Shown piece after piece: positions 737-63,796 of a stretch of DNA of 64,000 nucleotides. The notes below the pieces were generated by a model. It was given only the letters and a program-made list of their open reading frames with translations, was not told where the DNA came from and searched no databases. A program made the translations under genes and the position numbers. Position 1 is the first letter of the stretch, and each line of letters opens with the position of its first letter. Source of the stretch: Anaerorhabdus furcosa (GTDB lineage: Bacteria; Bacillota_I; Bacilli_A; Erysipelotrichales; Erysipelotrichaceae); the NCBI RefSeq assembly GCF_900167375.1, contig NZ_FUWY01000002.1, forward strand, positions 372,001 to 436,000. Direction: 5' to 3'.

Positions 737-3013
737 TTATTTCTTCTTAACTTTTAGGTAAATAATTGCTGCAAATGACAAAATACCAATGAATGAAATA
801 ATAGCACCTTCCTTAAATCCTTGTGGGGTGAAATACATTTCGATTTGATTATCTCCTTCAAATATCGGAATACCAATGAAACCACCATTAACTTTGTACG
901 TCTTAACATTTTCGCCATTAATTTTTACTTTCCACCCAGAATCATAAGGTAAAGTTATAACCATAAAACTAGAGGCATCACTGTAAACGTATCCAGTAAG
1001 TTGATTATCATAGTATTGAATGTTTTCGAGAATGGAAGTTTCTTGGCTGGATATTAATGCATTGATATCTTCAAAATCATTATCATTTACATATAATGTG
1101 TTGGATAGTGACTTACTGTCAGAGTAATTATCTATTAATTCTATTTTTGAATAAGTTGTACCTAAATCGCGGTAATTATCATTTCGATATATAAGAAAAC
1201 TATATCGGAAGTTATTAGATAATAATCTCCAGTTACCACCAACAGGTAACTCGCTTTCGTTTGTGACTATCGCATATTTAACATTAAGGAAATTTAATAA
1301 ATTAATATCTTTGATATTAAATATCCACTCTGATTCAAAATCGCGAATGCTTGGTTCTAAAGCCTTTAAATCATTTATTGAGGGAGCATAAGTTGAATCA
1401 TATCCCATGGTTCCATTTAATTGATAAAGCATTGACATATTATGACTATAAGACCAATATAATGATTCATGTGGTATATAAACTCTAAAATATTGACTTG
1501 GATTTACGGGTTCAATAGAATTCAACACTTCATTGAGTTGATTGTCATAATCTTGTAATACATGTGATACTTTGTTAATAAATTCATAATTTTCGATTTT
1601 AGATATTTCATTTAATTTTCTTGCATATAAAATTGTTCCACCAATTAATAATTCAATTGATGTAAAAATCAGTAATATGTTCAGTAAGTGTTTAGGTTTT
1701 TTTGAAATAATAAGAACATAGATTAATAATGTTATTGCGTAAATTGTAAATAAAACAATTTGATATGTTAAATTTTGTAAAGATTGATTAGTAATAAGGG
1801 CACTTACTGGAATAATAGAAATCAATATGATAAAGGAAATAGTAGATGAAAGTTTAAATATTTTTAAATTAATTTCACTTATTTTATCCAAGATGATAGA
1901 AGAAGTTATTATATTAAATAATATTAAGAAAAATGTCCATCGAAAACTGGGATCGCCAAATCCATGAATAGCTGATCCGATTCTTGGGAATAACAAAATT
2001 AGTAAAAAACAAATCCAAACACCAAGTGTAGCAGTTCTAAATTTAGTTTTTATCGTGAGTATTAGAGGTAAAAGAAGAGCTGTGATTAAACCACTATACA
2101 TGCAAATCTCACGAGAATAGTGAAAATTTGTTTCGAATACATTTGTATTGTAAATATATAGATAATTTGGGACGAAAATTGATACAAGTTCATGTAAGTA
2201 CACTTGAATATCCTTGAATACTAGCCCTTCTTTGAATGCTCCCAAACGATCATTACCTAAAATGTAATAAATAGTAGGTAAGGTAAGTATCATTGTTATA
2301 GAAACCCCGATTAGATAATAGCCAATAGTTATTAATGTGTCCTTCAAGAATTTGTTAAAACTCTCATTGATTATATAATAACGATAAATATAATAAATAA
2401 CTGTGAAAAATGAAATAGTAAAAAAGAAATAGAAATTTGTAAATAAGCATAACGAAGTAAAAGTGATATAAAGAATAGGTTTTTTCTTTTGAAGAATATT
2501 TTCTAAACCTGCAAAATATAGAGGCACAAATGCATAAAAAGAAAGAAATACAAGTTGACCACTAAAGAAAATAGCCCAACCACTAAATGTATAACAAATT
2601 GCTCCAATCATTTTTACTTTTGCCTTTAAATTATACTGCGATAATAAATAATACATTCCAAAAGCAGCAACATAAAATTTGAGAATTTCCAGAATCAAAG
2701 CAGTTTGGAAAAAATCTATTTTGAATAAAAGTCCAATATAGCTAAATATGTCACCCATTAAATAGTAACTTTTTGAAGCAAAGAAATTTGTTCCTAAAAA
2801 TGTTGACCATGAGTAGAAAGGCAGTGATTTATTTTCAAGGAAATTTGTCATTAAATTACGAAATTCTTCATAAAATAAGTACCATTGAGGGCGAATATCG
2901 GTTCCATATTCCAAAGGTAAATTATTGAAAATATATTGTCCAAAATAGCATCCCATAATTATTGTGCAAATCAAGAAAAGTAGTATAAGATATTTTTTTT
3001 CATGTTTAATCAT
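737..3013 (-). CDS. YfhO-family GT-C membrane glycosyltransferase
   Basis: A 758-residue polytopic protein with about a dozen hydrophobic segments up to residue ~480, then a long extracellular domain and a final membrane helix near the C-terminus. Residues G-T-D and Q-W near position 40-45, after the first helix, fit the acidic loop-1 motif of GT-C enzymes. Family knowledge: YfhO is the transferase of the CsbB-GtcA-YfhO type three-component systems that decorate teichoic acids or wall glycans. A clear ribosome site (AGGGGTGA) precedes the ATG at 3013. It is divergent from gtrA, which lies 92 bases away and would be the flippase partner. The acceptor polymer is not known. Confidence 0.85.
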   Translation of the reverse strand: MIKHEKKYLILLFLICTIIMGCYFGQYIFNNLPLEYGTDIRPQWYLFYEEFRNLMTNFLENKSLPFYSWSTFLGTNFFASKSYYLMGDIFSYIGLLFKIDFFQTALILEILKFYVAAFGMYYLLSQYNLKAKVKMIGAICYTFSGWAIFFSGQLVFLSFYAFVPLYFAGLENILQKKKPILYITFTSLCLFTNFYFFFTISFFTVIYYIYRYYIINESFNKFLKDTLITIGYYLIGVSITMILTLPTIYYILGNDRLGAFKEGLVFKDIQVYLHELVSIFVPNYLYIYNTNVFETNFHYSREICMYSGLITALLLPLILTIKTKFRTATLGVWICFLLILLFPRIGSAIHGFGDPSFRWTFFLILFNIITSSIILDKISEINLKIFKLSSTISFIILISIIPVSALITNQSLQNLTYQIVLFTIYAITLLIYVLIISKKPKHLLNILLIFTSIELLIGGTILYARKLNEISKIENYEFINKVSHVLQDYDNQLNEVLNSIEPVNPSQYFRVYIPHESLYWSYSHNMSMLYQLNGTMGYDSTYAPSINDLKALEPSIRDFESEWIFNIKDINLLNFLNVKYAIVTNESELPVGGNWRLLSNNFRYSFLIYRNDNYRDLGTTYSKIELIDNYSDSKSLSNTLYVNDNDFEDINALISSQETSILENIQYYDNQLTGYVYSDASSFMVITLPYDSGWKVKINGENVKTYKVNGGFIGIPIFEGDNQIEMYFTPQGFKEGAIISFIGILSFAAIIYLKVKKK

Positions 3014-9037: not shown

Positions 9038-10405
9038 ATGGGGGTATTGTCATTTAATTTCATCGGATTTGTATCCTTTGTATTTATACTGACATGGCTA
9101 ACAAAAGGGGAGATTCGAAAAATCATACTTCTTGTAAGCAATGTATTTTTTGTGATGTCTTTTGGTAATTTGTTTCATTTAAGTTATTTAATATTTATTA
9201 TCATCTATACGTATTATTTTTCAAAGTATTTATTAAAAGTTAAATCAAAGAAAGGGTTAATTCTAGCAATTGTCATTCCAATTCTTGTACTTATTTATTT
9301 CAAATATTTTAATTTCATTAAAATTGATAATTTAGTCATGCCTATTGGGATATCATTCTATACATTTAAAGTAATAAGTCATTTAGTGGATACTTACAAA
9401 AGAAATGATGATATCGATTTTAATTTATTTGACTATTCATTATATGTTAGTTTTTTCCCTTGTTTATCTGCAGGACCAATTCATAGATCATATGATTTCT
9501 TTAATCAGTTAAGCGCTTCAAAATCATTTGACTATAAGACTTTAAAAAATGGTGCTACTTTATGTGCGTTTGGAATGTTTCAAAAAATTGTGATTGCAGA
9601 TTACTTAAATATTGTTGTAAAGAATATTTTGGATAATCCCGAATATACAGGAGTTTATGTTTTATTTGGACTTTTCCTATATTCCTTTCAACTGTATGTG
9701 GATTTTGATGCCTATAGTAATATCGCAATAGGTGTTAGTAATATGCTGGGATTTAATATTAAAAGAAATTTCTATACACCTTACTTATCGGTAACATTGC
9801 AAGAATTCTGGCATAGATGGCATATCTCACTATCAACTTGGATTAGAGATTATATTTACATCCCATTAGGGGGTAATAGAAAAGGGTTGATACGGAAATA
9901 TACGAATATATTTATCGCATTTGGGTTAAGTGGTCTATGGCATGGATCTTCATTTGTTTTCCTATTGTGGGGATTTGGGCATGGATTGGTATTAATTATT
10001 GAGGAAACACTGAAACCTTTGTTTAAAGATTTCCCAATGAATAAATTCACAAAGATTCTAGGAATTGCAACTAATTTCATCATTGTAAGTTTCTTGTGGA
10101 TTTTATTTAGAAATAATTCAATTCAAGAGGTTATGGACATAATTAGTAGACTCATTCAACCAGATTTATTTACATTAGAGTATTTAGGAATGAGTTTAAT
10201 CCAATTCTCTTGGGTTATCATATTAGTTATGATAACAGTTATCACAGATGTATTCAGATACAAGACCAATATGATAACTTGGTTTAACAATAAAGGCTTA
10301 ATATTTAGATGGTGTACCTACGTATGTTTAATCGCAATAGTTATTGTTTTTGGGGTTTATGGTACGGGTTATAATCCAAATGACTTTATTTATATTACAT
10401 TTTAA
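9038..10405 (+). CDS. MBOAT-family O-acyltransferase (AlgI/DltB-like)
   Basis: A 455-residue polytopic membrane protein with the MBOAT signature: P-I-G-I-S-F-Y-T-F near residue 103, F-W-H-R-W-H-I-S-L-S-T-W-I-R-D-Y near 265, and the catalytic histidine in S-G-L-W-H-G near 300. Family knowledge: these enzymes move acyl groups through the membrane to an exported acceptor, with a partner SGNH protein. The partner is probably the product of 7064-8470. The acceptor is likely a glycan of this locus. Confidence 0.92.
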   Translation: MGVLSFNFIGFVSFVFILTWLTKGEIRKIILLVSNVFFVMSFGNLFHLSYLIFIIIYTYYFSKYLLKVKSKKGLILAIVIPILVLIYFKYFNFIKIDNLVMPIGISFYTFKVISHLVDTYKRNDDIDFNLFDYSLYVSFFPCLSAGPIHRSYDFFNQLSASKSFDYKTLKNGATLCAFGMFQKIVIADYLNIVVKNILDNPEYTGVYVLFGLFLYSFQLYVDFDAYSNIAIGVSNMLGFNIKRNFYTPYLSVTLQEFWHRWHISLSTWIRDYIYIPLGGNRKGLIRKYTNIFIAFGLSGLWHGSSFVFLLWGFGHGLVLIIEETLKPLFKDFPMNKFTKILGIATNFIIVSFLWILFRNNSIQEVMDIISRLIQPDLFTLEYLGMSLIQFSWVIILVMITVITDVFRYKTNMITWFNNKGLIFRWCTYVCLIAIVIVFGVYGTGYNPNDFIYITF

Positions 10406-10419
10406 AGGATAGAATATAA

Positions 10420-10447
10420 AAGTGGCTTTCTATAAAAAGCCATTTTT
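10420..10447 (+). terminator. Terminator after MBOAT gene
   Basis: Hairpin TGGCTTT / AAAGCCA followed by T residues; an extended -10 (TTGGTATACT) for the next gene follows at once. Confidence 0.75.
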
Positions 10448-10470
10448 GGTATACTAGACATGGTGATGAT

Positions 10471-11430
10471 ATGTCAAAGAAAGTAAGTATTATTGTACCA
10501 GTATATAACGTAGAGAAGTATTTAGAACGTTGTATCAAGAGTATTGTAGGTCAAACTTATGAAAATACAGAGATTATCTTAGTCAATGATGGCTCTACAG
10601 ATAGTTCCTTACAAATTTGTAAGGGCTATGAAAGTGATTCAAGGGTTATAATAGTAGACAAGATCAACGGTGGTTTAAGTGATGCTAGAAATGCGGGATT
10701 AAACGTAGCTACTGGTGATTATGTCGGTTTTATTGATAGTGATGATTTTATAAAAGAGTCTATGATTGAACAAATGATGATTGCTATCAATCAAGATGAA
10801 TCTGATATCTGTGTGTGTGACATGGAATATCTATATGATGATGGCAAAATTAACTTTGCATCAGGTGGAGATTTTAAATTGTCATCAATCAAAGAAACTC
10901 CTGAGTTAATTAGAATAAACAATAGTGCTTGCAATAAGTTGTTTAAAAAAGAGATGTTCAAAGATGTCAAATTTCCAGTAGGAAAATATTATGAAGATCT
11001 TGCAACAATTCCTATTTTAATTTATAAGGCAAATAAAGTATCAAAAGTAAATGATGCGTTCTATGTTTATTATCAAAGAAGTGGTTCAATTGCACACACA
11101 GCAAATAAAAAAATCTTTGAGATCTATGATGCAATTGATGATTGTATACAATATGTTAAACAACATGGAAATGAAGAAATAATCATTAAAGAACTAAACC
11201 ATTTCTATATTATTCATGGATTAGATTTAACGACATTAAGAATTAAGGACTTTAATGATAAGTCTTTACGTGAAGAGTATTTAATAGAAAATATGAATGA
11301 ACTTCAAAAACGTTATCCACTATGGAAGAAAGATAGTTATTATCTACAAGCTGGACTAAAGAAGAAATTCATCTATTCACTATTAGAAAAAGGGAAAGTG
11401 AGAACAGTATTAAAGCTTTATGACAAATAA
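10471..11430 (+). CDS. GT2 glycosyltransferase (GT-A fold)
   Basis: A 319-residue family 2 glycosyltransferase: S-I-I-V-P-V-Y-N-V at the N-terminus, N-D-G-S-T-D-S, G-G-L-S-D-A-R-N-A-G near residue 70, and the D-S-D-D metal motif near 90. There is no membrane helix, so it acts in the cytoplasm on lipid-linked intermediates. A TATACT box at 10450 after the preceding terminator gives it its own promoter. It resembles the GT2 proteins at 28382 and 30401. Donor and acceptor cannot be named from sequence. Confidence 0.9.
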   Translation: MSKKVSIIVPVYNVEKYLERCIKSIVGQTYENTEIILVNDGSTDSSLQICKGYESDSRVIIVDKINGGLSDARNAGLNVATGDYVGFIDSDDFIKESMIEQMMIAINQDESDICVCDMEYLYDDGKINFASGGDFKLSSIKETPELIRINNSACNKLFKKEMFKDVKFPVGKYYEDLATIPILIYKANKVSKVNDAFYVYYQRSGSIAHTANKKIFEIYDAIDDCIQYVKQHGNEEIIIKELNHFYIIHGLDLTTLRIKDFNDKSLREEYLIENMNELQKRYPLWKKDSYYLQAGLKKKFIYSLLEKGKVRTVLKLYDK

Positions 11431-12577
11431 AACAAAAATACTATTTGTAAATGACGAAATGGAAATGGGAGGAGTTGCCCGTGTTTTAAATACACTCATG
11501 GCAAACCTAGATACTAATAAATATGATATTTCGTGTCTTATTTTGCACAAAACAGGTATGTTAGTATCAGAAATTCCAAGTCATGTCCATGTGATAGAGG
11601 GTACTCCATTTTTTAATACAATTGATAGACCATTGATTGATATTTTAAACAGGATGGATCTAAAAGCATTAGCGAGTAAGTTAAGACTCTTGTTTTATAT
11701 GAAAACAGGATTAATAAAGAAAAGAATTTTGCATGAAAGAAAAAAACTTATTAAAGAAAGATATGATGTAGAATTAGCAGCAAAAGAAGGATTCTGTACG
11801 ATTTTTACTGCTTATGGCGATAGTAAGAAGAAAATGAACTGGGTATTAACAGATTATAAACAAAATAACTATTCCAAAAACCACATGAAATTAGTTGTTA
11901 AAGCATTACAAAGAATTGATATGAATATTGCGGATTCTGAAGATGTACTAGAATCATTTAAAGAAGTATTTGGAATTACAAGAGGAGTCACAATTCATAA
12001 CCTAATGGATGTAGAGAAAGTCAAAAATGGTGTAGAATCCGCATATAATGAATCCGTGGTACAGCCAGGAATCAATGTGATTGCAGTTGCTCGATTTCAT
12101 CCTCAAAAAAGTTTAGAAAGATTATTATATGCCCATAAAGCTGCAATTGATAAAGGTATCGAACATAACTTATATCTTATTGGTGGAGGAGAAACTGAAC
12201 CACAATTACGACAAATAGTTAAAGAAAATAATCTAAATAGAGTATTTTTCTTAGGATATAAACAAAATCCTTATGCCTATATTGCTAAATGTGATTTGTT
12301 TGTATTATCAAGTTTATATGAAGGGTTTGCAACCATTATCAATGAAAGTTTGATTGCAGGAACCCCAGTATTAACTACTAGGGTAGGTGGAGTTAGCGAC
12401 CAAATCACTGATTCGAATCAAGGTTGGATTGTAGAGAATACTCAAGAAGCATTAAAGGCAGGATATATTCTTGCTTTAAGTAAACCCGAAAAATTAAAAG
12501 AAATGAAAGATTCACTAGAATCTTACAAATACCCAAATGATAAAATATTGAAGCAATTTGAAGAGGTATTTAAATGA
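11420..12577 (+). CDS. GT4-family glycosyltransferase (GT-B fold)
   Basis: A 385-residue protein with an N-terminal G-G-V-A-R-V-L acceptor-domain loop and a C-terminal Rossmann domain. A family 4 E-x7-E motif lies in S-L-Y-E-G-F-A-T-I-I-N-E-S near residue 305, followed by G-T-P-V-L-T-T. It overlaps the preceding GT2 gene by 11 bases and the next gene by 4, so it is part of one operon. It probably adds a sugar to a lipid-linked oligosaccharide; the sugar is unknown. Confidence 0.9.
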   Translation: MTNKTKILFVNDEMEMGGVARVLNTLMANLDTNKYDISCLILHKTGMLVSEIPSHVHVIEGTPFFNTIDRPLIDILNRMDLKALASKLRLLFYMKTGLIKKRILHERKKLIKERYDVELAAKEGFCTIFTAYGDSKKKMNWVLTDYKQNNYSKNHMKLVVKALQRIDMNIADSEDVLESFKEVFGITRGVTIHNLMDVEKVKNGVESAYNESVVQPGINVIAVARFHPQKSLERLLYAHKAAIDKGIEHNLYLIGGGETEPQLRQIVKENNLNRVFFLGYKQNPYAYIAKCDLFVLSSLYEGFATIINESLIAGTPVLTTRVGGVSDQITDSNQGWIVENTQEALKAGYILALSKPEKLKEMKDSLESYKYPNDKILKQFEEVFK

Positions 12578-54388: not shown

Positions 54389-54464
54389 GGTCCTGTAGCT
54401 CAGTCGGTAGAGCAATGGACTGAAAATCCATGTGTCGCCGGTTCAATCCCGGCTGGGACCACCA
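54389..54464 (+). tRNA. tRNA-Phe(GAA), likely integration target
   Basis: Anticodon loop CTGAAAA with GAA, acceptor GGTCCTG / TGGGACC, and an encoded CCA. Its 3' end faces the integrase gene at 54619-55731, as expected if the element inserted at this tRNA. Confidence 0.95.
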
Positions 54465-54475
54465 TTAGAAAACAT

Positions 54476-54618: not shown

Positions 54619-55731
54619 CTACATTCTTGTCTTATTGTAGTCTTCAAGTTTATTTGATATTTCTTCATGATTAGCTAGTGAATCAAGGTGCGTATATATT
54701 TCTAATGTAATTCTGACACTGGAGTGGCCAAGTAAATATTGTGCTTCCTTAACTCCAATACCAGCGTAATACAATGCAGTAGCATAATCATGTCTGAATA
54801 TATGTGAAGTAAGATCATCACCTACCTGTGGCAGCTTCTCTGTGGTGGCTTTTGCGTTCATTTTATCAATGATAGATTCAAACATTCTTTTGAACGATTG
54901 CTCGCTAATTAATTCTTTGGACTGCAGGCTAGTAAATAGGTAAGGTGTATTCAGTTTATCTAAGTATGCCTTGAGAAAATCAATGTCAGATTTCAATAAT
55001 GGTAAGGTTCGTTTACTTGCCTTTGATTTTGGATCTTTTATTGTGGCTTGGTTTTTGTCAAAGTGAATGGCTTTCGATATGGTAACAGTATTCTTTTCAA
55101 AGTTAAAGCAATCTTTTTGAAGTGCTAGGGCTTCTTCTCTGCGTAGCCCGCAATTTTTAATCATTCTAATATAACAACTCTCTCTATCTGAAAAGGTTGT
55201 TAAAACGCTTAACTTCGCTTCGTGTGGCATCAGAGGTCTTTTTGTTTCAGGTACATATTTTGGAATAACAAGATCATCTGCAAAGTTATCTTTGATCAAT
55301 CCATCTTTCTTAGCCTGCTTAAGTATTTGATTAATCGTTATTTTTATCTTTTGGCATGTCCGTGCCTTTAGAGCGTGGTGATTGATGACATCTTGGACAT
55401 CTTGTCTAGTAATTTCATTTAATTCTTTATCGTGTAAATTCAGCAGATTAAAATCAATTACTGTTTTATACATCTTATAGGTTGCTTTTTCGACTCCTAT
55501 ACTTTTTGTATCACACCATTTAGTAGCGTATTCTTTAAAGTTATGTTTAACAGCATCATAGGGATTTTCTTCAAGGTAAAGTCTATATTCGTGGACTTTA
55601 CGTTCTAAATCTGCGGAACTTTTTCCATAAATACTTTTAGTTATACGTTTACCATTATCATCAAATCCTATCGTTATTGAAGTCTTGTACTGTGTTCGGT
55701 TAGAACATTGACTATATTTTGCTTTTGGCAT
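54619..55731 (-). CDS. int: Tyrosine recombinase/integrase
   Basis: A 370-residue integrase. It has an arm-binding N-terminal domain (about 1-55), a core-binding SAM-like domain (about 60-165) and a catalytic domain with R in G-L-R-R-E-E near 198, H-x-x-R in S-H-I-F-R-H near 312, G-H-S-S near 330 and the tyrosine nucleophile in E-I-Y-T-H-L near 345. The start at 55731 has a GGAGGTGG site; an in-frame ATG 48 bases upstream has none. It catalyses integration and excision of the element. Its end lies 155 bases from tRNA-Phe. Confidence 0.96.
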   Translation of the reverse strand: MPKAKYSQCSNRTQYKTSITIGFDDNGKRITKSIYGKSSADLERKVHEYRLYLEENPYDAVKHNFKEYATKWCDTKSIGVEKATYKMYKTVIDFNLLNLHDKELNEITRQDVQDVINHHALKARTCQKIKITINQILKQAKKDGLIKDNFADDLVIPKYVPETKRPLMPHEAKLSVLTTFSDRESCYIRMIKNCGLRREEALALQKDCFNFEKNTVTISKAIHFDKNQATIKDPKSKASKRTLPLLKSDIDFLKAYLDKLNTPYLFTSLQSKELISEQSFKRMFESIIDKMNAKATTEKLPQVGDDLTSHIFRHDYATALYYAGIGVKEAQYLLGHSSVRITLEIYTHLDSLANHEEISNKLEDYNKTRM

Positions 55732-55800
55732 TGAACCACCTCCATTAAATTTGTTATAATGTAGGCATAGTAAAAGCACAAATGCTAATGCTATGCGATT

Positions 55801-56838: not shown

Positions 56839-57264
56839 TTAAACGCTTTGCGTTATATCCTTTAATAGACCTTTGTTACTGTATATATATAATATTCGCT
56901 TAACAAATTCTTCGGTTATTCCAAAGAATGTTGCCAAGTCATAAACTTCCGTAATTTCTTTTAATATGCATTCCTTTAATTCGTCTATAGGCATAACTAA
57001 TTGTGCTGCGCGATAGTCGGCCCTGTATTCAGCACTTCCTCGGTATAAGTTAGAATGATTAATTGTATAGAGAGTACCTGATATGCAGTGACCTAGTTCA
57101 TGAGCTAGACAAACTATTTTTTCAGATTCAGTTTCGAATTTTGATTCATCGATATTTATGCAAAGCATATCATCAAGTTCTACTGAAAGAGATTTTGTTA
57201 CATTCATTCTTTTGAAAAATACTGGGTAGTTGTTATCATCTGCATAATTTAGTAAGGAATCCAT
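56839..57264 (-). CDS. ImmA/IrrE-family metallopeptidase
   Basis: A 141-residue protein with the zinc motif H-E-L-G-H (His55, Glu56, His59) and the downstream E-Y-R-A-D-Y-R-A acidic segment typical of ImmA. Family knowledge: ImmA cleaves the ImmR-type repressor and so triggers element excision. The repressor gene starts the same operon, eight bases upstream, which fits such a pair. Confidence 0.93.
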   Translation of the reverse strand: MDSLLNYADDNNYPVFFKRMNVTKSLSVELDDMLCINIDESKFETESEKIVCLAHELGHCISGTLYTINHSNLYRGSAEYRADYRAAQLVMPIDELKECILKEITEVYDLATFFGITEEFVKRILYIYSNKGLLKDITQSV

Positions 57265-57271
57265 AATTCAC

Positions 57272-57622
57272 CTACTTATTCTTGTTTTTAATAAATCTCG
57301 CAAAATCAAGAACATCTTGTTTTTGTTCTTCGGTCAAATCCTTCACTTCACCATACAAAGCGAATCGGAAATCGTCGAATGATACATCTGAGTCGACAGA
57401 TGAATTTTTACCATAAATCAAATAATCCATAGAAACATTGAAATAATTCGAAAGCTTTTGAACATATCCCATATTTGGCTCAGTGCGACTGATTTCCCAA
57501 GAAGAAATAGTTTTTCCGCTTACTTCCAATATTTCGCCAAGTTCATCTTGACTAAGGCTCATGGATTCTCTTAGTTTTTTAATTGTTTCTCCAATAACTA
57601 TTTTTCTCATAATGCACCTCAT
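57272..57622 (-). CDS. XRE/cI-type repressor (ImmR-like)
   Basis: A 116-residue protein with an N-terminal HTH (L-R-E-S-M-S-L-S-Q-D-E-L-G-E-I-L, about 8-62) and a short acidic C-terminus with E-E-Q-K-Q-D-V-L-D-F-A-R-F-I. It probably keeps the element silent by binding the operators at 57629-57702 and is a target of the adjacent ImmA protease. The ATG at 57616 is another possible start; the GAGGTGC site supports an ATG close to 57610. Confidence 0.9.
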   Translation of the reverse strand: MRCIMRKIVIGETIKKLRESMSLSQDELGEILEVSGKTISSWEISRTEPNMGYVQKLSNYFNVSMDYLIYGKNSSVDSDVSFDDFRFALYGEVKDLTEEQKQDVLDFARFIKNKNK

Positions 57623-59563: not shown

Positions 59564-60595
59564 ATGAAGATAAGTGGTAAACATTTCAAACGAGGTATGC
59601 CCAATAACTATATCGCAATCGAAAAAGATTATGTATTGATTCATTCCTTTGATGGAACAACAGGAATCTATCGAATGGAACAAAATGAATTTGGATTACA
59701 AGAAGGTGGAAAAATTGAATTTAATCTTGTAGCAAAGGATTTCAATTTATTATCAAAGTTTAATGAATTGGATGTTGAACTTGTAGGAGATAGTATTTGT
59801 TTTAAAAGCGGTGTATCAAAATTTAAAATACAAAACTATGAACTGAGTCTTAATCGACCAGATACAACAGGTGCTGTTGAAATGAATGTTCCTATTGATA
59901 TTATGAATAAATGTATTGCATTTGCTGATGCAACACGCAAAGAATGTGCTGGTGTGTTAGTCTATGAAAACTCTGTTGTTGGGTCTTCAGGATCAAATAC
60001 ATATAAAAAGGTATTGAAAACAAACACACAAACAATTCATATTCCAGGATCATTCTTAAAAAATTTAGAAAAGGATAATTATTCAATTAAATCAACTGGG
60101 AAAGTTATATTCGCATCAAAGCAGGGGGAAATTGTTTACTCACCATTGTATGAGCAAAAAATTACGATGTTAGAAAATTACGATCCTAAATTTGAAGGAA
60201 TACTATCGATTGATTGCAATGAACTTATAGCACAATTACAAAATATTTCACTTTTTAGCAATCACGTTTGTTTTGAAATAAAAAATGATAAGCTCAATCT
60301 CTTGTCACTTGTTGATGAAGGTATTCACAAAGAGTTTACATCATCAATAAAGATTGTGAAAACTAACATACAAGAATACAAGCAAGTGTTCAGAGTAGAT
60401 CATTTGTTAAAAGTGATAGATGCGGTATCGGCAAAAGAAATAAGCATCGATAAGAATGCATTCATGATGAAAAATGGTGATGAATTATCAGTGACTATGG
60501 TTGTTTCTAATCAAAATTCAGAAGATTTAAAAATTAAAGCAGTTACTGTGAAACCAGGCGAAAACAAGACAGTGGAGGAAATAGAAAATGAATAA
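59564..60595 (+). CDS. Sliding-clamp-like (DNA polymerase III beta-like) protein
   Basis: A 343-residue protein whose three repeated sheet-helix-sheet units resemble the beta clamp: a first unit to ~115, a second with I-P-G-S-F-L-K-N-L and the strand G-K-V-I-F-A-S-K-Q-G near 178, and a third from L-S-I-D-C-N-E-L-I near 213, with a final unit having V-F-R-V-D-H-L-L-K-V-I. No catalytic motif is visible. Length and layout fit beta-clamp proteins (about 365 residues), but sequence identity is low. It heads an operon with the ubiquitin-like gene, which overlaps its stop. It may be a processivity factor for element replication or a platform modified by the cassette. Confidence 0.62.
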   Translation: MKISGKHFKRGMPNNYIAIEKDYVLIHSFDGTTGIYRMEQNEFGLQEGGKIEFNLVAKDFNLLSKFNELDVELVGDSICFKSGVSKFKIQNYELSLNRPDTTGAVEMNVPIDIMNKCIAFADATRKECAGVLVYENSVVGSSGSNTYKKVLKTNTQTIHIPGSFLKNLEKDNYSIKSTGKVIFASKQGEIVYSPLYEQKITMLENYDPKFEGILSIDCNELIAQLQNISLFSNHVCFEIKNDKLNLLSLVDEGIHKEFTSSIKIVKTNIQEYKQVFRVDHLLKVIDAVSAKEISIDKNAFMMKNGDELSVTMVVSNQNSEDLKIKAVTVKPGENKTVEEIENE

Positions 60596-60926
60596 CGATT
60601 TATTTGATGTATTAGGCATGAAGACTGTAGAAACCAAGGAAACAAAAAAGGAAGTAAAAAAAGATACTGTTGTGAGTAAGTCAACAAATGATGCTGAAGA
60701 AAAGAGTTCATCAAAGAAATATGTTTATCCTTTTAAAATTCATTTTGGTGGTGAGACAAGAGATGTTGATCATATCTTTACTGAAGGAGCTGAATACACT
60801 GAATCCGAAATTAAGGAAGCGATGTTAAACCATCAGTTCTATGAATTCTCAGGTGAAGTATCGTTTGATTACAGAGATAAAGACAATGTGCTCATTCCAA
60901 TATTCAAGCACCATAAGAAAGGATAA
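60588..60926 (+). CDS. Ubiquitin-like protein of the PRTRC-C/Prok_Ub type
   Basis: A 112-residue protein. The N-terminal ~46 residues are charged and probably disordered (starting M-N-N-D-L-F-D-V-L). The rest fits the small beta-grasp PRTRC protein C: F-K-I-H-F-G-G-E-T-R-D-V near residue 53, a helix with Y-T-E-S-E-I-K-E-A-M and a strand E-F-S-G-E-V. The protein ends in H-H-K-K-G, so a single Gly is the last residue, as in other members. Family knowledge: E1 and E2 partners are predicted to activate this C-terminus. The E1-like gene follows at once (two bases between them). Confidence 0.8.
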   Translation: MNNDLFDVLGMKTVETKETKKEVKKDTVVSKSTNDAEEKSSSKKYVYPFKIHFGGETRDVDHIFTEGAEYTESEIKEAMLNHQFYEFSGEVSFDYRDKDNVLIPIFKHHKKG

Positions 60927-60928
60927 TT

Positions 60929-61585
60929 ATGAATTATCACTTTTATATCGTTGGTGTCGGTGGAACCGGATCACTTCTAGCACGTGATATGCCCAAACTA
61001 CTGATAGGTAGCAATTGTGAAATGACGTTGATTGATGGTGACATAGTAGAAGGGAAGAACATGAAGCGTCAATCGTATCAAACACAAGATATAGGCGAAA
61101 ATAAAGCGATTGCATTGTCTAAAAAAATCAATACTTTTTATGGAACGAATTGCTATGCAATTGATCGTTACATTACTGAATCTGACTTTTTTGAAGTTAT
61201 TCAAAAAGAAAGTCGCATCCCAGTGATTGTTGGATGTGTTGATAATGATGCAACTAGGAAAGTGTGTGAGAAAGTTGTTAAAAGATTGAAACAGTGTATT
61301 TATATAGATTCAGCAAATTCAGAATATTCAGGAGACATTTATATCTGTGTAAAATCTAACAAAGAAATTAAAGGTGCTTTGCGAGGGAAAACATACAAAT
61401 TAAAAAAAGATAAGCATCCAAATGAATTAAGCTGCCAAGAGCAAGCATCAAAAGGAAATGTTCAATTTCTTATTACCAATAATAAAATGGCGTGTGTTCT
61501 GTTAGAACACATCCATCTATTATTAATAAATCAACTGAAGGTAGGTGTTACAAATGTTGAGCGACTTAAAACAGTACATTACTGA
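60929..61585 (+). CDS. ThiF/E1-like activating enzyme of the PRTRC type
   Basis: A 218-residue protein with the ATP loop G-V-G-G-T-G-S (residues 9-15), L-I-D-G-D (Asp36, Asp38), Asn44 and Arg47 for ATP binding, and V-G-C-V-D-N-D-A-T-R (Asp105, Arg110). Cys169 in E-L-S-C-Q-E-Q is the candidate catalytic cysteine. This is the ThiF/MoeB-type adenylating core without an extra C-terminal domain. It should adenylate the C-terminal Gly of the neighbouring ubiquitin-like protein. The next gene overlaps its end. Confidence 0.9.
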   Translation: MNYHFYIVGVGGTGSLLARDMPKLLIGSNCEMTLIDGDIVEGKNMKRQSYQTQDIGENKAIALSKKINTFYGTNCYAIDRYITESDFFEVIQKESRIPVIVGCVDNDATRKVCEKVVKRLKQCIYIDSANSEYSGDIYICVKSNKEIKGALRGKTYKLKKDKHPNELSCQEQASKGNVQFLITNNKMACVLLEHIHLLLINQLKVGVTNVERLKTVHY

Positions 61586-62417
61586 AGATAGTGATAGTGT
61601 TGATGAGTTTGGTGATTTTATTCGTTTAATCTTGGAGAGAACAAGAAATAATCGATTATTTGATTACTTTGTAGACACATCAAGACAAAATGTATGGGAG
61701 TGTAAGAATCGGCGTGCAGAAATTATTCAGGGATATACTTACGACTATTCTCTGTATGATGATGTTTTTCATGATTTAAATAATAAATATAGTGCGGATG
61801 GAACTGATTATGGATGTGTTAGTGTGGTGCTACTCATGGTGTTGTTTTGTTATTTAGAAGAATCAGATATAAAGATTTACCTGGTGTGTAACTCAAGTGA
61901 TTATTATTGTGACAGCTTAGATCATACTTCAAAGAACACAAATGATGAATTTACAGGCGTTATCACCTATTGGGTTGGTGAGTTGAGAAAATATTTTGGA
62001 ATTAATGAAGATGAAGAATTTATACATTTATTTCGAGGTATCGATAGTGAAACAGGTGAAATAGATGATATGGACAATACTTGTGAGACATTCGGCTCTT
62101 TCTTAGCCATAAAACTTATGAATAAGAGAAAAAGAAGAAAATTTCATCAAGTCATGAAAGCATTGGAATTCGTTAAATTCGATCCAGATACATTTTATGT
62201 TGCGGACGTGGATGCTTATGATGGATATTATGATTCTATAGAAATTTCAAAAGAAAAAGTCGTTGATTTACTGATAAATGTAAAACCAATTAGAACGGCA
62301 GAATTATTTCAAGATGTACTTGTTAGTTATTCTGATGATCTCGAAGAACAACATTCAAGTTCCTTAATAAGCGACATACTGAAAGTTTACCAATCTACAG
62401 TAGAGGTTATTCTATGA
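61554..62417 (+). CDS. Acidic protein of unknown function in the ubiquitin-like cassette
   Basis: A 287-residue protein rich in Asp, Glu and Tyr, with a central hydrophobic stretch (C-V-S-V-V-L-L-M-V-L-F-C-Y-L near residue 92) that is probably a buried helix. No HxH or JAB protease motif is visible. The ATG at 61554 has AGGTAGG eight bases upstream; a GTG at 61545 is possible. It overlaps the E1 gene by 32 bases and the E2-like gene by four. Position suggests that it belongs to the cassette, perhaps as PRTRC protein F or an adaptor; I cannot confirm this. Confidence 0.6.
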   Translation: MLSDLKQYITEDSDSVDEFGDFIRLILERTRNNRLFDYFVDTSRQNVWECKNRRAEIIQGYTYDYSLYDDVFHDLNNKYSADGTDYGCVSVVLLMVLFCYLEESDIKIYLVCNSSDYYCDSLDHTSKNTNDEFTGVITYWVGELRKYFGINEDEEFIHLFRGIDSETGEIDDMDNTCETFGSFLAIKLMNKRKRRKFHQVMKALEFVKFDPDTFYVADVDAYDGYYDSIEISKEKVVDLLINVKPIRTAELFQDVLVSYSDDLEEQHSSSLISDILKVYQSTVEVIL

Positions 62418-63031
62418 AACAAGTTGTCATTAGAATTACTTCAACTAAGCCCGATGCAGAAGTATTAATTGTAGAAAATAATCAACAACTTTTTAAATCA
62501 GTTAGTGCAACTGAAATTTTAAAGCTATTAAAAAAGAAATTTAGTAATTTAACATCCAGTGCTAATAAGCCAAAGGTGTTATCCAAAAATATCTATGCTG
62601 TTGATGTCGGGAAGTATGCAATCGTTCAAAAAGAACAAAAAAGATATGTAACCTATGAAGGAAAATGCTATGATATACAATTTCCCAATTCATTCTATAT
62701 TGTCACATTTACGAACGAAAGAATAGAAAACATTGAAGCTTATTCATTTAAAAAATTTAAAGGTCAAGATACAACGTTATATGAATACCCAATGCCGAAT
62801 ATGCTGACTGAAAGCAAATTATGTATTGGGACTGCAGATAGAAAAATCAAAACAAATGTGGAGAATACTTTAAATTCAATTATAGAAACTGAATTCACAC
62901 ATTCTATTGTCGATGGAATTAAGGGATTTAAAGATACTAAAAAGTACTTTCAATATTTATCTAAAAATCCATTTCCATATGACATGTTAATAAAAACAAA
63001 ATTGAAAGTAGGTGATCTAGTTGATGAATAA
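62414..63031 (+). CDS. E2-like protein of the PRTRC-B/Prok-E2_D type
   Basis: A 205-residue protein. The C-terminal half carries the PRTRC-B pattern Y-E-Y-P-M-P-N near residue 123, then K-L-C-I-G-T with Cys137 as the candidate thioester cysteine, and later E-F-T-H (residues 160-163). The N-terminal half is a mixed sheet with a poorly conserved helix. Family knowledge: Prok-E2_D proteins are predicted E2/UBC-fold members of the PRTRC cassette that lack the usual conserved histidine. Translation is coupled to the gene before it by ATGA. Confidence 0.78.
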   Translation: MKQVVIRITSTKPDAEVLIVENNQQLFKSVSATEILKLLKKKFSNLTSSANKPKVLSKNIYAVDVGKYAIVQKEQKRYVTYEGKCYDIQFPNSFYIVTFTNERIENIEAYSFKKFKGQDTTLYEYPMPNMLTESKLCIGTADRKIKTNVENTLNSIIETEFTHSIVDGIKGFKDTKKYFQYLSKNPFPYDMLIKTKLKVGDLVDE

Positions 63032-63068
63032 GCACATCGTCTTAACTTATTTACTTAGATACATCTAA
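63024..63068 (+). CDS. Candidate 14-codon coupling mini-ORF
   Basis: ATG at 63024 lies inside the end of the E2-like gene (GATGAATAA). The frame runs 14 codons and its TAA shares a base with the ATG of the replication gene (TAATG). The replication gene has no good ribosome site of its own, so this small frame may carry ribosomes to it. Confidence 0.35.
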   Translation: MNKHIVLTYLLRYI

Positions 63069-63796
63069 TGGCAGCACCAAAAAAGGAACATTTAGATTAT
63101 TACAATTGGTCATGCAAGGCTTATGATACTAATTTTACATTGAAAAAATTATCTAGAAAATATGGTCCTCTTGGCGAAACGATATATCGTAGAATGTTAG
63201 ATCTAATTTATATAACGAATTATTACATTGTTATTGATATAGATGAACTGTCATATGATTTGGCTCAAAAAATAGGAACCAAATGGTGTGATGAAAATAA
63301 ATGCGCTGAAATCCTCCGGTACTGCACCGATATAGGTTTATTTGATAAAAACCTCGTGGAATGTAATGTATGGACTTCAGATGGCATTCAAAAAAGATAC
63401 TTTGAAATCATGGAAAAAGTATTAAGACGAACGATTGATTTCAAAAATAAAAAATATCTTTTAATAGATGTTCCTTTAAGTGTACCTAAAAATGATATAT
63501 CTTCGGAAGAAACTGGATTTAATTCAGAAAAAACTAGGGTTTATTCGGAAGAAACTGGGGTTAATTCCGATAAAGGAAATGAAATCAAAATAAACCAAAA
63601 TAAATCAAATAATAGTAAAGAAGAAGATAGTAAAGATTTAGATGCCTCTGACCTACCAACAATCATCGAGAATATCGAAGTGGCAGTGGGAAGAAAATTA
63701 AATGAGATGGAGCGTTCATTGATTTTAAATGACATCAACAACAAAAGAGATATTGATGTAGCTCGCTTCTTCTTTACTAAACACACGCACACATAG
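63068..63796 (+). CDS. Replication initiator-like protein (Lin1244/Lin1753 N-terminal domain)
   Basis: A 242-residue protein. The N-terminal half has a winged-helix-type domain seen in phage and ICE replication proteins (DUF4373 type): L-S-R-K-Y-G-P-L-G-E-T-I-Y-R-R-M-L near residue 28, and I-L-R-Y-C-T-D-I-G-L-F near 88. A linker with repeated S-E-E-T-G/R units follows (about 140-165), then a short segment (from I-I-E-N-I-E) that resembles the start of a DnaD domain but ends early. It probably starts replication of the excised element. The short C-terminus may be a truncation. Confidence 0.78.
   Translation: MAAPKKEHLDYYNWSCKAYDTNFTLKKLSRKYGPLGETIYRRMLDLIYITNYYIVIDIDELSYDLAQKIGTKWCDENKCAEILRYCTDIGLFDKNLVECNVWTSDGIQKRYFEIMEKVLRRTIDFKNKKYLLIDVPLSVPKNDISSEETGFNSEKTRVYSEETGVNSDKGNEIKINQNKSNNSKEEDSKDLDASDLPTIIENIEVAVGRKLNEMERSLILNDINNKRDIDVARFFFTKHTHT

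Follow-up and report, generated by a model that had tools for sequence, protein, structure and literature searches.

The window analysed here, a 64,000-nucleotide stretch of an Anaerorhabdus furcosa contig, carries at positions 60588-63031 a four-gene cassette predicted to encode a ubiquitin-like protein (Ubl) conjugation system. The four genes lie on the forward strand of a prophage, tightly packed in the order Ubl-E1-X-E2, with a gap of 2 bp between Ubl and E1, an overlap of 32-41 bp between E1 and X (depending on the start codon of X) and an overlap of 4 bp between X and E2. Their coordinates and open reading frames (ORFs) are as given in an original prediction made from the sequence alone. 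The overlapping gene on the 5' side, a divergent sliding-clamp homologue (59564-60595), was absent from that prediction and is the most informative companion of the cassette.

59564..60595, forward strand: divergent homologue of the DnaN (DNA polymerase III beta) sliding clamp; overlaps the Ubl start by 8 bp
60588..60926, forward strand: Ubl, 112 aa; N-terminal NNDLF, charged linker (~10-40), predicted beta-grasp region (~44-106), HKKG directly before the stop
60929..61585, forward strand: E1-like ThiF adenylyltransferase, 218 aa, with GVGGTG and Cys169; PF00899 E=1.8e-15, TIGR03736 64 bits
61554..62417, forward strand: protein X, 287 aa (290 from GTG 61545), fast evolving
62414..63031, forward strand: E2-like protein of the Prok-E2_D family, 205 aa, with Cys137 and His163; PF14460 E=2.6e-7, passing the Pfam cut-off

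Cassette proteins and their distribution

The best NCBIfam match of the E1-like protein is PRTRC_ThiF (TIGR03736), at a score under the 144.75 cut-off; an E1 of this type, lacking rhodanese, is a mark of PRTRC and type 6d. Its family profile matched human UBA5, SUMO E1 and bacterial BubCD in the PDB, and the protein is also similar to ThiF and MoeB. The E2-like protein reached 26 bits with the PRTRC_B model, under the cut-off of that model, and over 178 columns its family profile could be aligned to PRTRC_B and to E2 proteins of plasmids (hhalign, E=3.9e-19, 99%). A sequence search of the PDB with the E2 profile gave no match. In the first alignment, comprising 5-6 sequences, GVGGTG and Cys169 of E1 as well as Cys137 and the downstream His163 of E2 were invariant. 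In operon type 6d of Iyer et al., the E2 has a cysteine and a downstream histidine instead of the classical histidine (PMC1779556), and the Cys137/His163 pattern is that of the type 6d E2. A Ubl ending in glycine, an E1 with GxGGxG and Cys169 and an E2-like protein with Cys137, as originally predicted, are confirmed.

No family match was obtained for the Ubl in Pfam, NCBIfam or other curated libraries, PHROG included. In an AlphaFold2 model based on 22 homologues, the first 40 residues are disordered and residues 41-110 have a predicted local distance difference test (pLDDT) score of about 82-91. Structural matches of the model were mostly beta-grasp proteins, namely the Get5 UBL (Z 5.1), ubiquitin (4.6), SUMO2 (4.3), PB1 domains and protein L/G. 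These modest Z scores, of which the best is 5.1, support a beta-grasp fold but do not prove kinship. A relationship to PRTRC-C-like Ubls is suggested by profile comparison (E=1.6e-4, probability just 50%). The original prediction had been staked on a match of the Ubl to the beta-grasp fold and of the E2 to the E2 fold in profile searches and predicted structures; the E2 part stood with the match to Prok-E2_D, whereas the Ubl lacks a curated-profile match, yet is beta-grasp in its predicted structure. The C terminus [KRAS]KG stands directly before the stop codon in 23 of 23 Ubls. Across the loci its glycine is encoded by all four Gly codons, and the distance from the Ubl stop to the E1 start varies from 41 to -4 nt. 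In distant relatives with other gene orders, the Ubl either ends in KKG before the stop or runs past KKG into a JAB domain.

Protein X gave no match in the curated libraries (Pfam, NCBIfam, PHROG), and nothing stood out in a fold search (best Foldseek E=0.28, best VIA Z 3.5). Profile comparison showed no similarity to PRTRC_F or to the small proteins a and b of plasmid cassettes, but X is so divergent that it may still share an origin with PRTRC_F. A conserved EV at its C terminus is explained by Shine-Dalgarno codons.

Scanning of viral contigs, genome contigs and related whole genomes gathered 23 phage or prophage loci, in all of which the order Ubl-E1-X-E2 is constant. Because the gene order is fixed in 23 loci, a chance arrangement is excluded. 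A first genome-contig scan with a single-protein query gave no match, nor did tblastn with E2 against phage and plasmid records; searches of the latter records then used the E1, and the E2 of the viral contig L035, as queries. Amedibacillus, Dielma, Stoquefichus, Massilimicrobiota and other Erysipelotrichaceae are the hosts with a name. The cassette occurs rarely, in 5 of 60 relatives and in 4 of 392 genomes from the phylum. It is surrounded by SSB, RecT, RusA, YqaJ-like and replication genes, names that are mostly our own reading of the sequences. One extra locus beyond the 23 has a broken E1. In a Dielma fastidiosa prophage (L015, L032, L053), a frameshift in an A run splits E1, which may mean that the cassette is dead, or reflect slippage or an error in sequencing.

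The phage cassettes group in a single clade in the tree of E1 as well as in that of E2 (support 100/99), in agreement with the distinct branch originally proposed. PRTRC forms a separate clade (100/99 and 96/92), which excludes the E1 of the window, and cassettes of Bacillota plasmids are placed between the two. The occurrence of E2-D cassettes on these plasmids corrects the original view of the class as mainly proteobacterial. The reported absence of ParB and JAB was confirmed: JAB models found no match in the 23 cassette loci and the rest of the window prophage (L010), and ParB and PRTRC_F homologues were not detected in the window prophage, with the controls detected in each case. Two JAMM-like pattern matches, in X proteins and one phage ORF, lacked JAB profile support, and a single weak, unrelated ParB match was found in locus L034.

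A sliding-clamp gene and clamp-binding motifs

Single sequences of the clamp family remain under the Pfam cut-offs. When the family profile (A7, 10 relatives) was compared with the PDB, every one of the top 28 matches was a sliding clamp, 27 of them beta clamps of bacteria and one archaeal, with a best E value of 3e-7. Alignment with plasmid DnaN extended over 281 columns (hhalign, E=2.9e-10, 96.8%). Judged by these profiles, the gene at 59564-60595 is homologous to bacterial beta clamps. The homologue stands directly 5' of the Ubl gene in 10 phage loci, with a broken copy in an additional locus, L033. In all 11 clamp loci, L033 included, the clamp stop falls between -29 and +2 bp relative to the start codon of the Ubl, which suggests translational coupling of clamp and Ubl.

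Clamp genes also accompany E2-D cassettes on other elements. Five Bacillaceae plasmids share the order Rad52 (one unannotated) - dnaN - a - b - E2 - (Ubl-JAB) - E1. In P. aeruginosa AR439, dnaN lies 4 kb downstream of PRTRC. The Xanthomonas citri plasmid pXAS220 has an unannotated DnaN-type clamp immediately upstream of the PRTRC ParB gene (L079:5171-6280, PDB E=1e-18), and the viral contig L038, with a PRTRC-like set, has a clamp at its beginning. This association is to be taken as a strong lead rather than as a statistical result. No paper joining E2-D systems to sliding clamps was found within the limited body of literature searched. As a separate observation, a group II intron reverse transcriptase sits at the start of the Ubl-JAB gene in the Cytobacillus firmus plasmid (L065:9227-11038), apparently interrupting it, and the ThiF gene of this plasmid is short.

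The clamp-binding consensus is Q-phi-x-[LM]-[FL], and exchange of Gln to Asn reduces binding modestly (PMC11139829). Near-consensus motifs occur in the plasmid relatives of the Ubl. The pattern Qx[SDNTA][LIM][FL] is found in the first 60 residues of 10 of 12 Ubl proteins from Bacillota plasmids or large phages, compared with 0.17 expected from shuffles, an expectation that ignores relatedness, so that kin sequences inflate the count. The motifs, in plasmid Ubl-JAB proteins and two free-standing Ubls, are QTDIF, QTNLF, QSDLF, QMDLF, QETIF, QLALF, QFSLF and QMDLL. The window Ubl starts with MNNDLFDVLGM, of which NNDLFDVLGM aligns with QTNLFALLGM of Priestia. In PRTRC_E proteins (L072-L087; L038:4952-5920), 5 of 14 end in [LIM][FL] before the stop, with 0.06 expected, and three contain QADLF, QEDLF or QDLF internally; the strict motif does not occur in their last 45 residues. 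PRTRC_E as a clamp binder accordingly remains a lead. Two further occurrences were noted. Large phage recombination-module proteins of cluster c4 (L051:2131-3600; L013, reverse strand, 10293-11789) carry the clamp-motif-like EQRSLFGGDD and EQQMNFFGGED, and a 501-aa protein of a 120-kb viral contig (L035:6402-7907) combines a Ubl-like N-terminal region, QMDLL and a Prok-JAB domain.

In addition to the relatedness behind the motif count, several observations weigh against a role of the clamp. The motif of the window Ubl is a degenerate NNDLF that fails the consensus by having Asn in place of Gln, and its relatives retain D[LI]F or weaker hydrophobic versions, with most of them weaker still than the window motif. 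The C-terminal [LM]PxRx, which in plasmid DnaNs closes the known peptide pocket, is missing from the window clamp on direct reading. That Ubl motif and clamp pocket diverged together is a speculation. Twelve of the 23 phage cassettes have no recognisable adjacent clamp, and the clamp is therefore not an obligatory partner of the phage cassette. In 11 of these 12 loci the replication module carries an unrelated protein, A8, and the A8-bearing loci are one subclade of 11 in the E2 tree. The idea that A8 is a reduced clamp was not supported. Finally, dnaN is present in 5 of 11 fetched Bacillota plasmids and in only 2 of 14 fetched PRTRC or cyanobacterial plasmid regions, and since the elements are related the counts are not independent.

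Host prophage

The cassette was originally assigned to an element inserted at tRNA-Phe. Exact 50-bp att repeats confirm the insertion and bound the element, which, with its integrase, repressor, terminase, portal, head protease and tape measure, is a 30.6-kb siphovirus-like prophage, not an integrative and conjugative element. IMG/VR holds an entry for the same phage.

54417..54466, forward strand: attL, the 3' part of tRNA-Phe (tRNA call), exact 50-bp repeat of 84985-85034
54619..55779, reverse strand: prophage integrase (tyrosine recombinase), PHROG 1 E=8e-58
56839..57264, reverse strand: ImmA-like metalloprotease, PHROG 87 E=6e-19
57272..57622, reverse strand: phage repressor (helix-turn-helix), PHROG 8 E=3e-17
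63068..63796, forward strand: phage replication initiation protein, next gene 3' of E2, PHROG 2562 E=1e-31, PF14297
84985-85034, outside the window: attR, exact 50-bp copy of 54417-54466

Further on between the att repeats are genes for a DNA methyltransferase, an HNH endonuclease, the terminase large subunit, portal, head maturation protease, major tail protein and tape measure. The cassette occupies the early region of the prophage, flanked by the early regulators on one side and the replication initiator on the other.

Some neighbouring genes were identified by eye. Immediately past attR are IS3-type transposase fragments (L010:11731-12865, 85231-86365 on the scale of the window). Near the lysis and att end of the prophage region, L010:14630-16495 holds a trio of ATPase-like, short STAS-like and membrane proteins, which is found again in a related prophage (L012, 12647-14517, reverse strand). 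Downstream of the prophage, SIR2-like and TIR-like neighbours (L011:712-2085, forward strand, and 2052-2849, reverse strand) are a possible defence pair.

Proposed function, alternatives and relation to known systems

Sequence comparisons and the structural model support the set of genes, their catalytic residues, the fold, the homology to clamps and the coupling within the operon. A working Ubl conjugation cascade is highly probable. The E1 would adenylate the C-terminal glycine of the Ubl and load the Ubl onto Cys169; the Ubl would then move to Cys137 of E2 and, with His163 assisting, to a substrate lysine. Because the Ubl already ends in glycine, JAB would not be needed for its maturation. 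The N-terminal peptide of the Ubl could dock on the clamp encoded by the overlapping upstream gene, so that the clamp or proteins bound to it would be modified at the replication fork, with X as the best candidate for a substrate adaptor. Besides conjugation itself, we infer clamp docking, the target and a benefit to replication. Some role of the clamp for the Ubl system is slightly favoured, and the full proposal, a complete Prok-E2_D-class E1-E2-Ubl cascade tethered to the clamp in the replication module of a temperate phage, is in our judgement evenly poised. The clamp or replisome as the conjugation target can be put forward only tentatively. Equally tentative is the extension that phage and Bacillota plasmid cassettes, and possibly all PRTRC systems, are a bacterial counterpart of PCNA modification, in which a Ubl tethered to the clamp by its own N-terminal motif or by PRTRC_E would modify the clamp or clamp-bound replication proteins.

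The alternative that survives best is conjugation without a direct role of the clamp, in which the Ubl would be attached to other proteins of the phage or the host, and the clamp gene would just be a replication gene transcribed along with it. The 12 of 23 cassettes without an adjacent clamp, the degenerate motif of the window Ubl and the general modularity of phage early regions all fit this explanation. On the other hand, dnaN recurs beside the cassette across separate clades and element types, and canonical clamp-binding motifs are present on Ubl proteins themselves, so that we regard it as rather unlikely.

A function in anti-phage defence or counter-defence is improbable. In that case the Ubl would, like that of Bil, be attached to structural proteins of rival phages or, in the manner of the type II cyclic-oligonucleotide-based anti-phage signalling system (CBASS), adjust the activity of a defence enzyme. 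To our knowledge, the bacterial Ubl systems with a tested function, Bil and CBASS, are defensive, which counts in favour of this explanation. For CBASS, the defensive Ubl system has been described (PMC10097602). The E1 is weakly similar to PADLOC E1-E2 models (E=2.5e-10), but these models match no other cassette protein. Furthermore, the cassette is part of an early operon for replication, where the clamp and replication initiator genes flank it, and is not among the morons near the lysis end, and its neighbourhood concerns replication and recombination in all contexts.

ThiS/MoaD-like sulfur carriage or small-molecule chemistry instead of protein conjugation is very improbable. The resemblance of E1 to ThiF and MoeB and the single terminal glycine of the Ubl are compatible with it, but sulfur transfer offers no role for a dedicated E2 whose Cys and His are invariant, the E1 falls in the branch with E2-D partners, and thiamine or molybdopterin genes do not adjoin. 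That the terminal KG owes its conservation solely to its codons, which would serve as the Shine-Dalgarno site for E1, is hardly credible: AARGG does stand immediately 5' of the E1 start in nearly all loci, and the EV conserved at the C terminus of X has the same cause, but the invariant glycine and stop, the use of all four Gly codons, the variable gap to E1, a second AAGG 3' of the stop in L033 and the KKG of distant relatives, terminal or before JAB, make a pure ribosome-binding-site effect partly true and insufficient.

Nearly two decades after their description, no function has been assigned to PRTRC and other E2-D systems. If true, the clamp link would give them a first concrete molecular address, testable with few purified proteins, and would mean that bacteria and their viruses, too, subject replication clamps to ubiquitin-like control, in parallel to PCNA modification.

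The phage cassette and PRTRC (TIGR03736, TIGR03737, TIGR03738, TIGR03741; type 6d, PMC1779556) share a Ubl with C-terminal glycine, an E1, an E2 with Cys and downstream His, a further conserved protein and carriage on mobile elements. As originally noted, the gene order differs, being Ubl-E1-X-E2 in the phage and E-C-F-B-A-ThiF in PRTRC. The phage cassette also differs in that no JAB, ParB, E or F was found, that its scores are under the PRTRC equivalog cut-offs, that it forms a separate clade and that its Ubl has an N-terminal motif and a charged linker. Because JAB and ParB were searched for without success, it is classified as a variant of PRTRC or type 6d and not as a member. The Prok-E2_D cassettes of Bacillota plasmids (Terribacillus, Priestia, Virgibacillus, Rossellomorea, Cytobacillus, Paenibacillus) likewise have E1, E2-D and a Ubl with N-terminal D[LI]F and KKG, and dnaN adjoins in five. 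However, their Ubl is mostly fused to a JAB peptidase, the order is a-b-E2-UblJAB-E1, and two other small proteins replace X. Bil, Bub and the Cap2-Cap3 system of type II CBASS likewise combine E1 and E2 activities in a bacterial conjugation of the Ubl type, whereas their E2 families are different, usually with E2 fused to E1 or with other partners, their context is defence, and the E1 similarity is weak. The ubiquitylation and SUMOylation of eukaryotic PCNA is proposed as an analogy only, that of a Ubl pathway acting at a sliding clamp, and no homology of targets or E3s is claimed.

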